Made by a program: the position numbers and the translations under genes | NCBI RefSeq assembly: GCF_000421745.1 | Contig: NZ_ATXP01000008.1 | Span: forward strand, 1 to 64,000 | Direction of reading: 5' to 3' | From: Nesterenkonia alba DSM 19423 | Lineage (GTDB): Bacteria; Actinomycetota; Actinomycetes; Actinomycetales; Micrococcaceae | DNA length: 64,000 bases | Shown here: one piece after another, positions 344 through 11,475 of the stretch | How the letters are laid out: each line of letters starts with the position of its first letter | Numbering within the stretch: the stretch's first letter is position 1 | The notes under the pieces: generated by a model | Told to the model about the DNA's origin: nothing | What the model saw: the letters and a program-made list of their open reading frames with translations, nothing else | The model's database searches: none

Positions 344-1106
344 CCTGCACGCCGGTGGGGGCTCGGGGCTACGGAAGTCCTGGTTCGGCACCAGCTGCTG
401 CCCCACCAATATCGCCCGCACCCTGTCCTCAGTGCACCTGTATCTGGCCACTGCCACCGAGGATGCCGTACAGATCCACCAGTACGCCGAGGCGGAGCTG
501 AGCGTTGCCCTGGCTGAAGGAACCCTGGGGCTCCAGATGCGAACTAACTACCCCAGCGACGACGTCGTCACCCTCACCATCACCGAGGCGCCCGCCGCTG
601 AAGCCGGGCTCAGTCTGCGGATCCCGGCCTGGGCGAAGAATGCCACCGTGGAGATCGACGGCACCCCGCTCACCCCCGGGGAGGAGATCCGTCAGATCTT
701 CACCCCGGGTCAGCGCATCACCCTGACCCTGCCCCGGGAAGTCCGAGTGGTCCAGCCCGATCCGCGCATCGACGCGGTCCGCGGTACTGTCGCCATCGAA
801 CGCGGCCCCTGGGTGCTTGCCCTGGAGGACATCGACATCGACGCCGAGACCACCGTCAATGAGGTCGCCATCGACCTCAGCGAACCGCCTGTGGCAGTCG
901 GGGCCGATGATGCCGAGGTGACGTTGAAGCTTCTGACAGAACCCAGCAGTTGGTGGCCCTATACCGAAGGAGCTGAGCAGCCGGCGTCGTCGGCCACTCG
1001 TGTGCGACTGCACCCCTACCGGGTGTGGGCCGAGCGCGGTCCGACGACGATGCGGATCTTCCTCCCGCTGCCAGAACAGGAGAGCGTCCCGGCCACAAGC
1101 GAGTAG
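344..1106 (+). pseudogene. GH127 beta-L-arabinofuranosidase, 5'-truncated by the IS element
   Basis: The reading frame is open from the IS boundary to the stop at 1104-1106 and encodes about 253 residues of a GH127 C-terminal half. It begins with the catalytic signature WFGTSCCPTNIAR. The adjacent cysteines (codons 396-401) correspond to the pair that in HypBA1-type enzymes supplies zinc ligands and the nucleophile. Beta-sandwich sequence follows (SLRIPAWAKNATVEIDG, RGPWVLALED). The N-terminal (alpha/alpha)6 barrel with the Glu-x-Cys zinc ligands and the acid/base Glu is missing, so this remnant should be inactive. The family removes beta-L-arabinofuranose from short arabinosides, including hydroxyproline-linked ones. 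A GTG at 432 could start a shorter product. The missing 5' part presumably lies on the far side of the IS. Confidence 0.85.
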
Positions 1107-1124
1107 ACTGTTGCATATGGCAAC
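1104..1124 (+). promoter_or_regulatory. Leaderless-type promoter with overlapping operator-like dyad
   Basis: A -10-like hexamer TAGACT (1104-1109) overlaps the stop codon of the GH127 remnant. It is followed 7 bases later by ATG at 1117, the spacing seen before other leaderless genes here. The bases GTTGCATATGGCAAC (1110-1124) form an imperfect dyad with GTTGC/GCAAC arms, resembling MarR- or TetR-family operators that often control exporters. It would cover the transcription start. No regulator gene is adjacent. Confidence 0.45.
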
Positions 1125-1176
1125 TTTTATTTCCGTGACTGAGCGCGCCCTGGTGGTCCCGCTCACTGCCCCGTGA
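1117..1176 (+). CDS. 19-residue leader peptide upstream of the MFS gene
   Basis: A short frame MATFISVTERALVVPLTAP runs from ATG 1117 to TGA 1174-1176. Its stop overlaps the GTG start of the transporter (GTGA), an arrangement typical of translational coupling. It has no ribosome binding site but lies at the right distance from a TAGACT -10 box for leaderless translation. It is not similar to any family I recognise. It may simply deliver ribosomes to the transporter start, or may not be translated at all. Confidence 0.35.
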   Translation: MATFISVTERALVVPLTAP

Positions 1177-8428: not shown

Positions 8429-8433
8429 ACCCC

Positions 8434-11400
8434 ATGCTCACCCACGAGACTCGCACCCCCTACGCAGGGCGTCTGGCCCCGGCCCGCTCCTATCTGCACA
8501 GTGACGCTCCGGCGGTGAGTCTCAACGGCACATGGGGCTTCACCTTCCACGAGCAGGTCCCCTCCACCCCACCGGCAGACCAGCCCGCCGAGGAGATCAC
8601 CGTGCCTTCAACCTGGGTGCTCGACGGCCGGTGGAACAAGCCGATCTACACCAACACCCAGTACCCCTTCCCCATCGATCCGCCATACGTGCCCGATGCC
8701 AACCCCACCGGTGACTACGTGCGCACCATCGAGGTGCCCGCCGCGTGGCTGGAAACGGGCAGTGGTGACAGTGCGGCTGACGAGGCCACGGCTGGTGACA
8801 GCACCGGCGGTGACGCCGGTCGGGTGCTGCTGCGTTTCGACGGTGTGGAGTCCTTCATGCAGGTCTGGCTCAACGGGGAAGAAATCGGTGCCGCCTACGG
8901 CTCCCGGCTCGCCCACGAATTCGACATCACCGAGGCCGTCACAGCAGGGGAGAACACCCTCACTGTGCGTGTGGTGCAGTGGTCGGCGGGCTCCTACCTC
9001 GAAGATCAGGACCAGTGGTGGTTGCCCGGGATCTTCCGTGACGTCACCCTGCTGCACCGACCCGCCGCCGGCCTCGACGACGTCTGGATCCACGCCGATT
9101 ACGACCCCGCCACCGGACAGGGGTTCATCGTCCCGGAGATCACCGCTGCCCAGCAGGCTTTTCCCGTCCGGCTGAGCATCCCGGAGTTGGACATCGATGT
9201 GGTGTGGAACAGCCCCGAGGAGGTCACAGAGGTACCCGTCGGCGTCGTCGAACCCTGGTCGGCTGAGGTGCCCCGACTCTACGAGACCACCGTGTCCAAC
9301 GCCGCTGAGACGATCAGCCTGCGCAGCGGGTTCCGGCGCATCGAGATCATCGGCGACCACCTGCTGGCCAATGGGCGCCGCGTGGTCTTCTCCGGGATGA
9401 ACCGGCACGAAACCCACCCCGATCGGGGCCGGACCTTCGACTACGACGACGCCTACGCGGACCTGGCCATGATGAAGCAGCACAACGTCAACGCCATCCG
9501 CACCAGCCACTACCCACCACACCCGCGGCTGCTGGACATCGCCGATGAACTCGGCTTGTGGGTCATGCTCGAAGGTGACCTGGAGACCCACGGCTTCGGC
9601 AGCCGCGACTGGGCCCTGAACCCCAGCGAAGACCCCGCCTGGCGTGAGGCCTACCTGGACCGGATCGAACGTGCCATCGAACGGGATAAAAACCACCCCA
9701 GCGTGGTGATCTGGTCACTGGGTAACGAAGCCGGCCGCGGGCAGAACCTCGCCGCCCAGGCCGAATGGATCCGGCACCGCGACCCCACCCGACCCATCCA
9801 CTACGAAGGTGACTACGCCGGGATCTTCACTGACGTGTACTCGCGGATGTACGCCCGGGTGCCGGAGACTGAGTCCATTGGGCGCGACGACGACTACCGC
9901 CCTCTTCTGGGGTGTTCAATTGCCGAATCCGCACGCCAGCGTTCCAAACCCTTCATCCACTGCGAGTACGCTCACGCCATGGGCAACGGTCCCGGTGCCC
10001 TGGATGATTACCGGCGCATGGTGGATACCTATCCGCGGCTGCACGGCGGGTTCATCTGGGAGTGGCGGGACCACGGGCTCCGCACCCAAACCGAGGACGG
10101 CACGGAGTTCTTCGGATACGGGGGCGACTTCGGGGAACTGGTCCACGACGGCAACTTCGTCATGGACGGGATCATCCTCTCCGATGGCACCCCCTCACCT
10201 GGGCTGCTGGAGTACAAGCACGTCGAAGCGCCCCTGGTGTTCACCCGGGCCGGGCGCGGCAAAGTCCACGTCACCTCCCGCCGGCACACCGCTGACACCA
10301 CCGATCTGGCGCTGAAATGGACCATCACCCACGACGGCATCGAGGTCGCCTCTGGTCAGTGTGAGATCACCGGGGAAGACGGCAAACCCGTGGCCGCCGG
10401 GGGCAGCGCCGTGGTGGACCTGTTCCACCCCGCCGAGGCCCCCGCTGCTGAGCCCGGCACCGAAGTCCACGTCACTGTGGAAGCGGTGCTGCAGGCGATC
10501 GTCAGCTGGGCTGAGCCCGGCCACGTGGTCGCCCGCGGGCAGTGGGAGGAGACCGTCCCGGCCCCGGCCCTGCCCCGCCGGCGCAGTACCCTGCCGCTGG
10601 CCGAGGCGCCAGCCGGTTTCGCTGAAACGAGCCTGTCAGACCTGGCTGGATTGGCGGTGGCTGGACCCCGGCTGGAACTGTGGCGAGCCCCCACTGACAA
10701 TGACAACGGCGGGGCCTCCCATAACTACGACGTCACCGACCCGACCGACTTCGTCACTCGGGGGGAGCCCTCGCCACCCTCGGCGGAACGGTGGCGGCGA
10801 GCCAAGCTGGACAAGCTCATCACCCGCACCCTTGAGGTGACTCAGACGCAGACCAGCCGCACCGTGCGCCGCCGGTTCGCCGCACCCCAGCAGCGCACCG
10901 CGGTGGACCTCAATGAGACCTGGACCGCCGAGCGTGCCGCCGATGGGACCGTGGAACTGGTGCTGCGGGCCTCCATGGTGCCCAACCGGGAGTGGAATGA
11001 TGTCTGGCCGCGGCTGGGCCTGCATTTCACCCTGCCCACGGAGGTCGACGGCGCCGCGTGGTTCGGACTCGGCCCGCACGATACCTACCCGGATGTCTCC
11101 AGCTCCGGTTGGGTGGGACGCTTCGAGGCCGGGCTGGAGGACCTCACAGTGGAGTACGCACGCCCCCAGGAATCCGGGCACCGCTCACAGCTGCGGGAGC
11201 TGACGCTACGCCGCGGTGGCACCGACTGGGTGCAGATCACCGCGGAGCAGGACCTCGCCGGCCGCCGCCCGGGGTTCACCCTCAGCCCGCACAGCGCACA
11301 TGAGCTCGACGCCGCCGCACACCCGCACGAGCTGCCCGAGCCGTCTGCCACTCACCTCTACATCGACGCCGCCCAGCACGGACTGGGCTCGCGGGCCTGC

Positions 11401-11475
11401 GGGCCGGATGTGTGGCCGGATCATATGCTCCGGCCCACCGCCCGCACCCTCACCCTCCGCTTCCGCGCGCTCTAA
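8434..11475 (+). CDS. lacZ: GH2 beta-galactosidase
   Basis: This 1013-residue LacZ-type enzyme hydrolyses terminal beta-D-galactosides. It follows the usual order of jelly-roll, Ig-like, TIM barrel (from [12 protein letters not shown]), Ig-like and C-terminal beta-galactosidase small-chain domain ([11 protein letters not shown] onward). The acid/base is Glu432 (SLGNEAGRG) and the nucleophile Glu511 ([13 protein letters not shown]). The ATG at 8434 was preferred to an upstream ATG at 8374 because it aligns with family starts ([13 protein letters not shown]) and avoids a long overlap with the amidohydrolase; GGAGAGG lies 16 bases upstream. There is no signal peptide, so the galactoside is cleaved inside the cell. 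It ends the block that begins with the S33 peptidase. Confidence 0.93.

Follow-up and report, generated by a model that had tools for sequence, protein, structure and literature searches.

How do soil bacteria recover hydroxyproline (Hyp) from extensins and other hydroxyproline-rich glycoproteins, a large plant nitrogen store in which arabinosylated Hyp resists proteases? No description of such recovery was found in the part of the literature that was searched. The question is raised by a 64,000-nucleotide stretch of Nesterenkonia alba DSM 19423 (assembly GCF_000421745.1, contig NZ_ATXP01000008.1, here contig C8), which we call the window. For its positions 344 to 11,475, a preliminary description made from the letters alone had proposed an intracellular system for arabinosylated and galactosylated Pro/Hyp-rich glycopeptides. 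We conclude that these genes are probably the peptidase and glycosidase arm of a locus for hydroxyproline-rich, L-arabinosylated peptides, for example plant extensin fragments. The features on which the argument draws are listed below; "Hyp operon" denotes a trans-4-hydroxy-L-proline catabolic operon, and G numbers denote the genomes compared.

1 to 343, minus strand: end of an insertion sequence (IS) with an orfA-type transposase at 1-285 (HTH_Tnp_1, PF01527); it cuts a glycoside hydrolase family 127 (GH127) gene, and the contig ends here.
345 to 1106, plus strand: 3′ fragment of the GH127 gene (end of the catalytic domain, middle and C-terminal domains; PF20736/PF20737).
1173 to 2630, plus strand: major facilitator superfamily (MFS) transporter, DHA2-like, with orthologues (84% in G296, 70% in G218) that adjoin the Hyp operon.
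2880 to 2899, plus strand: promoter/operator-like element of 20 bp upstream of the S33 gene, recurring in G296 and G218.
3034 to 4317, plus strand: S33 prolyl(/hydroxyprolyl) aminopeptidase-like gene, of the Hyp-locus S33 group (best PDB match 8jgn).
4317 to 7151, plus strand: GH146-type β-L-arabinofuranosidase-like gene with a C-terminal OmpL47/Ig-like region, of the Hyp-locus GH146 clade.
7235 to 8428, plus strand: COG1228 Xaa-Pro dipeptidase (prolidase)-like amidohydrolase (best PDB match 3mkv, then 3feq).
8434 to 11475, plus strand: GH2 LacZ-type β-galactosidase (best PDB match 1yq2), outside the conserved locus.

What precedes these genes in the chromosome is hidden by the contig boundary, because the first base of the window, inside the IS, is also the first of contig C8. 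The 343 bases of the IS recur at other contig ends of the same genome, with 343/343 bases identical at two of them and near-identical or partial copies at five more stretches. Of the genome's four PF07944 places, one is an N-terminal half of GH127 with which the 6-kb contig C28 ends (L092, 4855-6009); it covers PF07944 positions 2-310 of 376 and has 4qjy as its best PDB match. The window fragment, which starts at 345, carries the motif WFGTSCCPTN (WFGxxCCP-like) and is assigned to GH127 by its PF20736 and PF20737 domains; approximately 50 residues between the two pieces are absent. The C28 half is cut by a repeat, 50 bases of which are found again where contig C19 begins; this repeat would be the other end of the IS at the window start. 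The two GH127 pieces are thus probably one gene split by the IS.

Upstream of the GH127 half, contig C28 carries the C-terminus of a dihydrodipicolinate synthase (DHDPS)-family protein (69% over 29 residues), an epimerase-like gene, a GntR/FCD regulator, a DAO-family oxidase, a 2Fe-2S protein and an FAD/NAD oxidoreductase. The epimerase-like product belongs to the proline racemase family (PF05544) and keeps both catalytic cysteines; the redox genes, read as D-amino-acid dehydrogenase subunits, match PF01266 (DAO) and Fer2_4, and the FAD/NAD oxidoreductase was checked on the G296 orthologue. No match to an aldehyde dehydrogenase was found on contig C28. Judged from these predicted products, the gene order looks like that of a putative Hyp operon, and it lay outside the stretch available to the preliminary description. 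In two genomes of the same genus, G296 and G218, a Hyp operon of the same order runs straight into the MFS gene, which is followed by adjacent S33 (87%) and COG1228 (76%) genes in G296 and by adjacent GH146 (71%) and COG1228 (78%) genes in G218. From this synteny and the split GH127 gene we infer that C28 and C8 are neighbours.

The linkage extends well beyond the genus. In 395 family genomes, PF07944 occurred in 44 (E 1e-20) and the C28 epimerase in 71 (E 1e-30); 15/395 had both PF07944 and proline-racemase-family genes, and in five of these 15 (G000, G218, G094, G143 and G190) the two lay no more than 20 kb apart, where chance would give 0.29 such genomes (Poisson P 1.4e-5; 0.003 when the two same-genus cases are set aside). 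The grouping is therefore not a chance one. In 396 order genomes, PF07944 was found in 171 (E 1e-30; order-wide places are those among the matches listed) and the epimerase in 63 (E 1e-60). We took the flanks of 87 epimerase loci besides the one in N. alba and kept the 71 with DHDPS and DadA, excluding 16 whose examined flank did not hold both. Within 20 kb, these 71 loci held S33 (at least 50% identity over more than 200 aa) at 18, M24 aminopeptidase-P-like genes at 20, COG1228 at 10, DppA at 16, GH127 at six and GH146 at seven; the raw GH146 count of eight was lowered because the G143 match was a GH146 query on a GH127 gene. The DppB, SSS, aldehyde dehydrogenase (ALDH), PutA and AraA (G094, G699) labels were assigned by eye rather than by family search.

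GH127 and/or GH146 thus stands at 12/71 Hyp-operon loci, making 13 genomes with N. alba, in seven family codes (f1, f3, f11, f14, f15, f17 and f19). A Pro-specific peptidase (S33, M24 or COG1228) was present at 11/12 arabinosidase loci, G094 being the exception, versus 25/59 of the others (Fisher P 0.0017), and DppA with DppB at 10/12, all except G218 and G699, versus 6/59 (P 9e-7); both P values are optimistic, because flank lengths were uneven and extra flank was chosen partly at Dpp edges. The most complete example is G748, in which GntR, DadA, FAD/NAD oxidoreductase, DHDPS, epimerase, ALDH, DppA, DppB, S33, M24 (PF00557 and PF05195 matches) and GH146 genes share one strand. The same genes share one strand in a different order in G519, with GH146-M24-S33-Dpp at one side; in G755, the Hyp operon separates M24, S33, Dpp and GH127 from GH146. 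GH127, Dpp, S33, M24 and the Hyp operon are found in G574 and G537; GH127, Dpp, S33, M24, DHDPS and the epimerase in G143; and GH127 with Dpp, AraA (by eye) and the Hyp operon in G094. The solute-binding protein of G143 is of the SBP_bac_5 family, and those of the other loci are its homologues by tblastn. Two genes inside the G143 Hyp operon (L168, 3304-5041) resemble, by eye, a split aconitase-X-type cis-3-hydroxyproline dehydratase.

Phylogenies place the window genes with those of the Hyp loci. In a tree that omits two S33 pieces shorter than 300 aa (L235 and L265), 18 Hyp-locus S33 sequences, the window's included, and the S33 of G228 make up a 100/100 group that excludes 26 S33 proteins of the same genus; the window S33 is 56-66% identical to Hyp-locus S33s of other families and 37-43% identical to the 26. 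The G228 gene, a close orthologue, stands beside a large PutA-like gene (by eye) with no Hyp operon (L100, 10625-16744), and the low-completeness genome G299 (L106) has an S33 and a PutA-like gene, both in pieces, perhaps through sequencing errors. In the PF07944 tree, eight Hyp-locus GH146s, whose rows were gathered at Hyp loci so that further members may lie away from Hyp operons, form one 100/100 clade, and five Hyp-locus GH127s (with two duplicate rows, L120 and L125, of L168 and L166; the G190 GH127, L171, was left out) form another.

Within the window, the S33, DUF1680, COG1228 and GH2 genes were found on the plus strand where the preliminary description had placed them. The TGATG overlap of the S33 and DUF1680 genes proved real on a sequence check, the bridging lysine of COG1228 is kept as Lys180, and no signal peptide was seen, by eye only, in the N-termini of the four products; the MFS gene between the GH127 fragment and S33 was absent from that account. 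Its claim of two GH127-clan arabinosidases, one of them broken, held for the broken gene, a true GH127, but not for the intact one, which is GH146-like. A phmmer search of the intact DUF1680 protein against the PDB returned 5opj (BT0349; 3.9e-61) and 8k7x (4.9e-54) far ahead of the GH127 4qjy (1.5e-13). Foldseek on a predicted model (mean pLDDT 56.6) returned GH146 at all of ranks 1-6, and PF20737, the GH127 C-terminal domain, had no match in the gene; assignment to GH127 was rejected on these grounds. A contig scan for DUF1680 turned up 16 distant loci, at 28-36%. Its closest characterised relatives are BT0349, then Bll3HypBA1. Both share with it the fold, the Cys pair and the Glu/Cys zinc ligands; they differ in sequence (approximately 27% identity) and in acting on arabinogalactan protein (AGP)/arabinan or rhamnogalacturonan I (RG-I) oligosaccharides, whereas the window's clade is found in Hyp loci. 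The residues of the zinc Cys3-Glu set and catalytic Cys, E345, C347, C415 and C416, do not vary across an alignment of 14 sequences and are conserved in 8/8 members of the Hyp-locus clade. The window GH146 is accordingly a predicted β-L-arabinofuranosidase.

The two peptidases are likewise predicted from homology. S33 matches the Arabidopsis protein AT3G61540 (8jgn, 2.3e-94) far better than the proline iminopeptidases 5yhp (2.9e-06) and 1azw (2.2e-04), carries the motif GQSYGG at 140 (GxSxGG type of the α/β hydrolases) and is a predicted prolyl(/hydroxyprolyl) aminopeptidase. COG1228 is nearest to 3mkv (1.8e-86), then to the prolidase 3feq, and keeps the metal-site motifs DAHFH, Lys180, AHAYT, EHGN and GSDL. 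The prolidases Sgx9260b/c (3mkv, 3feq/3n2c), cited in the accessible text of PMC10699109, are thus its nearest solved relatives with the same active-site motifs; Xaa-Pro dipeptidase activity of the window protein is a prediction. Neither the window nor the stretches from G218 and G296 gave an M24 match, and G711 has both M24 and COG1228. In the window, G218 and G296, COG1228 occupies the place that M24 has at other loci, the two being unrelated Xaa-Pro hydrolases with seemingly one role.

The galactose arm did not survive. The GH2 gene begins 5 bp past the COG1228 stop, at an ATG at 8434, and may still be co-transcribed here. Its best PDB match, 1yq2, makes it a LacZ-type enzyme; homologues at E 1e-30 occur in 6/29 other genomes of the genus, and none at the 71 Hyp-operon loci (within 20 kb). 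We therefore rejected the galactosylated-peptide half of the original proposal. The Hyp-peptide half is well supported by evidence from outside the window, namely the Hyp-operon linkage and the recurring set of arabinosidase, peptidase and importer genes. The exact set of S33, DUF1680, COG1228 and GH2, whose conserved co-occurrence had been put forward as a check, was found only here (30 genus genomes for S33, COG1228 and GH2; 295 family genomes for DUF1680), but the functional set recurs in other genera and families. Uniqueness to one genome, named in the preliminary description as a refutation, thus applies to the exact set and not to the functional one.

Taken together, a pathway for arabinosylated Hyp peptides can be proposed. 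It is built on which genes are present, how they are linked, where they fall in the trees and which active-site residues they keep; every substrate, the import of glycopeptides, cell location, the order of steps and co-regulation are predictions drawn from these. Short (glyco)peptides would enter through a Dpp-type ABC importer, as at 10/12 sister loci; in N. alba no importer was located beside the Hyp operon, and the window MFS may carry Hyp or dipeptides. In the cytosol, a zinc-cysteine β-L-arabinofuranosidase, GH146 here and GH127 and/or GH146 elsewhere, would strip arabinose from Hyp, as arabinose left in place would block peptidases. S33 would then release N-terminal Pro/Hyp, and Xaa-Pro/Hyp would be split by an Xaa-Pro hydrolase, COG1228 here and, at many of the sister loci, M24 aminopeptidase P. 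Hyp would finally be epimerised, oxidised, deaminated by the DHDPS-family enzyme and oxidised to 2-oxoglutarate, and arabinose would be used through AraA, a gene for which is present in the genome.

Several observations weigh against this reading. The adjacency of C28 and C8 is deduced rather than assembled, and the broken GH127 falls outside the Hyp-locus GH127 clade: its C28 half groups with a paralogue on contig C7 and with G227 and G368, and we dropped it as support. Family models were matched below their cut-offs by the C28 epimerase (356.9 bits on the 4-hydroxyproline epimerase model, cut-off 376), S33 (33.4 bits on TIGR01249, equivalog cut-off 259.75) and COG1228 (221.6 bits on NF051886, Xaa-Pro dipeptidase, cut-off 500). 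At 59/71 Hyp operons no arabinosidase lies within the examined flank, and the flank available within 20 kb of the epimerase was longer, on average, at the 12 arabinosidase loci (30.0 kb) than at the 59 (21.8 kb), some of the extra flank having been taken where Dpp genes reached the edge. A neighbourhood-blind search of 295 family genomes returned a close GH146 only here and in G218. In the available text of PMC10850190, Bll3HypBA1 cuts the Araf-β1,3-Araf of AGP/arabinan and not β1,2 linkages, and BT0349 is located in an RG-I locus, so that the substrate of Hyp-locus GH146s cannot be read from the known enzymes. The G755 Hyp-locus GH146 (L234, 12487-15348) has a twin-arginine (Tat)-like leader and may for this reason act extracellularly; no such leader was seen, by eye, at the start of the seven other members of its clade.

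Could the core instead be a plain Pro/Hyp peptide system for collagen, gelatin or other unglycosylated material, with arabinosidases added on for β-arabino-oligosaccharides that enter separately, as in Bifidobacterium? The 25 of the 59 loci that have S33, M24 or COG1228 with no arabinosidase in the examined flank speak for it, as does B. longum HypBA1, which in the accessible part of PMC7263609 cleaves imported β-Ara2, a free sugar. Such a division of labour sits poorly with a GH146 gene that directly follows M24 in five genomes (G748, G519, G559, G520 and G699) and, in the window, overlaps the S33 gene, and with the Dpp-like importer of 10/12 arabinosidase loci, and we regard it as rather unlikely. 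That the arabinosidases serve other plant β-L-Araf, in arabinan, AGP side chains or rhamnogalacturonan II (RG-II), and came to lie beside Hyp operons through a plant-litter life and IS-driven rearrangement would fit the known GH146 substrates, the IS copies at other contig ends and the top NCBIfam hit of both the G143 GH127 and the window fragment, aceric acid hydrolase, at 400 and 99 bits far under the cut-off of 950. Linkage in seven family codes, within one GH146 clade and one GH127 clade, and in 5/15 family genomes against 0.29 expected makes this very unlikely.

The remaining alternative, an accidental neighbourhood of a proline-peptide operon and a LacZ gene next to an IS-broken gene, draws on the exact gene set having been met in no other genome searched and on the 0/71 loci with GH2. 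Yet any two of S33, GH146 and COG1228 can be found together next to a Hyp operon in another genome (S33 with GH146 in G748, G519 and G755; S33 with COG1228 in G296 and G711; GH146 with COG1228 in G218), and we hold mere accident to be highly improbable. A locus for arabinosylated Hyp peptides is thus the reading that we retain. A bolder version, which we offer as a doubtful speculation, is that plant signalling peptides carrying tri-arabinosylated Hyp (CLE, HypSys or PSY type) are among the natural substrates, being imported by Dpp and dismantled intracellularly, and that the Hyp-locus GH146 clade has a new specificity, cutting the Ara-Hyp bond within peptides. If so, soil bacteria could erase plant peptide signals.

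Shared regulation was queried through the 20-bp element, which overlaps a −10-like hexamer, TACAAT, and is matched at 19/20 bases upstream of the G296 S33 and at 17/20 upstream of the G218 GH146. A three-site position weight matrix (PWM) scored 15.3, 15.4 and 18.5 upstream of DHDPS in G218, G296 and G290, respectively; the corresponding sets of 60 first-order random sequences reached up to 22.5, 16.8 and 17.6, and in G296 and G290 further sites equalled or exceeded the DHDPS score. Because these scores are weak, regulation of S33/GH146 shared with DHDPS and the Hyp operon is suggestive only. Between the MFS and S33 genes, positions 2690-2850 hold imperfect direct repeats (GGTTCAGGGGAACGGG...), seen by eye.

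Other parts of the genome carry related genes. Contig C19 (L093, 432-18255) has another GH127 of approximately 650 aa in one open frame, with permease genes, a hydantoinase/oxoprolinase (PF01968), an Opp-like importer, a second COG1228-like amidohydrolase (35-38%) and an ornithine cyclodeaminase (OCD)-like gene; it is possibly another locus for Hyp or cyclic-imide peptides. On contig C7 (L094, 6513-10737), a further GH127 adjoins a GH42 β-galactosidase (PF02449); in the tree, this GH127 stands closer than those of the Hyp loci to the broken gene of the window. Window positions 40592-58774, labelled by eye, form a run of carbohydrate/acid genes: a solute-binding protein, a TRAP-type transporter, an enolase-like dehydratase, GntR, a sugar ABC transporter and a GH3-like gene.

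The locus ties known arabinosidases and Pro-specific peptidases to the known Hyp pathway and supplies, for a GH146 clade that is still uncharacterised, a substrate hypothesis that a handful of recombinant enzymes could test. The full-text literature covered, which leaves most subscription papers outside, yielded no description of the combined set of arabinosidase, Pro-peptidase, importer and Hyp operon; partial counterparts are known. The Bifidobacterium longum system HypBA1/HypBA2/HypAA (GH127, GH121 and GH43, with a β-Ara2 ABC importer) shares an intracellular clan GH-P β-L-arabinofuranosidase for arabinosides of hydroxyproline-rich glycoproteins, but imports free β-Ara2 and, in the accessible part of PMC7263609, has no peptidase or Hyp catabolic gene named; the intact window enzyme, moreover, is a GH146. 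For Xanthomonas euvesicatoria XeHypBA1/BA2/AA, the available text of PMC6085000 reports that the GH127 XeHypBA1 releases arabinose from Ara-Hyp and that a predicted prolyl oligopeptidase gene lies beside xehypAA, which partly anticipates the pairing of a peptidase with an arabinosidase; the oligopeptidase gene is reported to be frameshifted, and the same text mentions no Hyp operon or peptide importer and does not contain the word "transporter". Trans-4-hydroxyproline catabolic operons of the proline racemase superfamily, as described in the consulted text of Zhao et al. 2014 (PMC4113996), a published neighbourhood network, comprise 4HypE, a D-amino acid oxidase (DAAO)-type oxidase, a DHDPS-type deaminase, aldehyde dehydrogenase, OCD and transporters, with peptidase families near one Bacilli cluster; the main text contains neither "arabino" nor "glycos". 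A genome-based proposal for Latescibacteria (PMC4454575) combines, in the part available, GH127 for extensin arabinose, peptidases and oligopeptide uptake in one organism, but as a whole-genome inventory in which no gene cluster or Hyp catabolic operon is named. Set beside these systems, the parts of the N. alba locus are of known kinds, and their assembly, together with the Hyp-locus GH146 clade, appears to be new.

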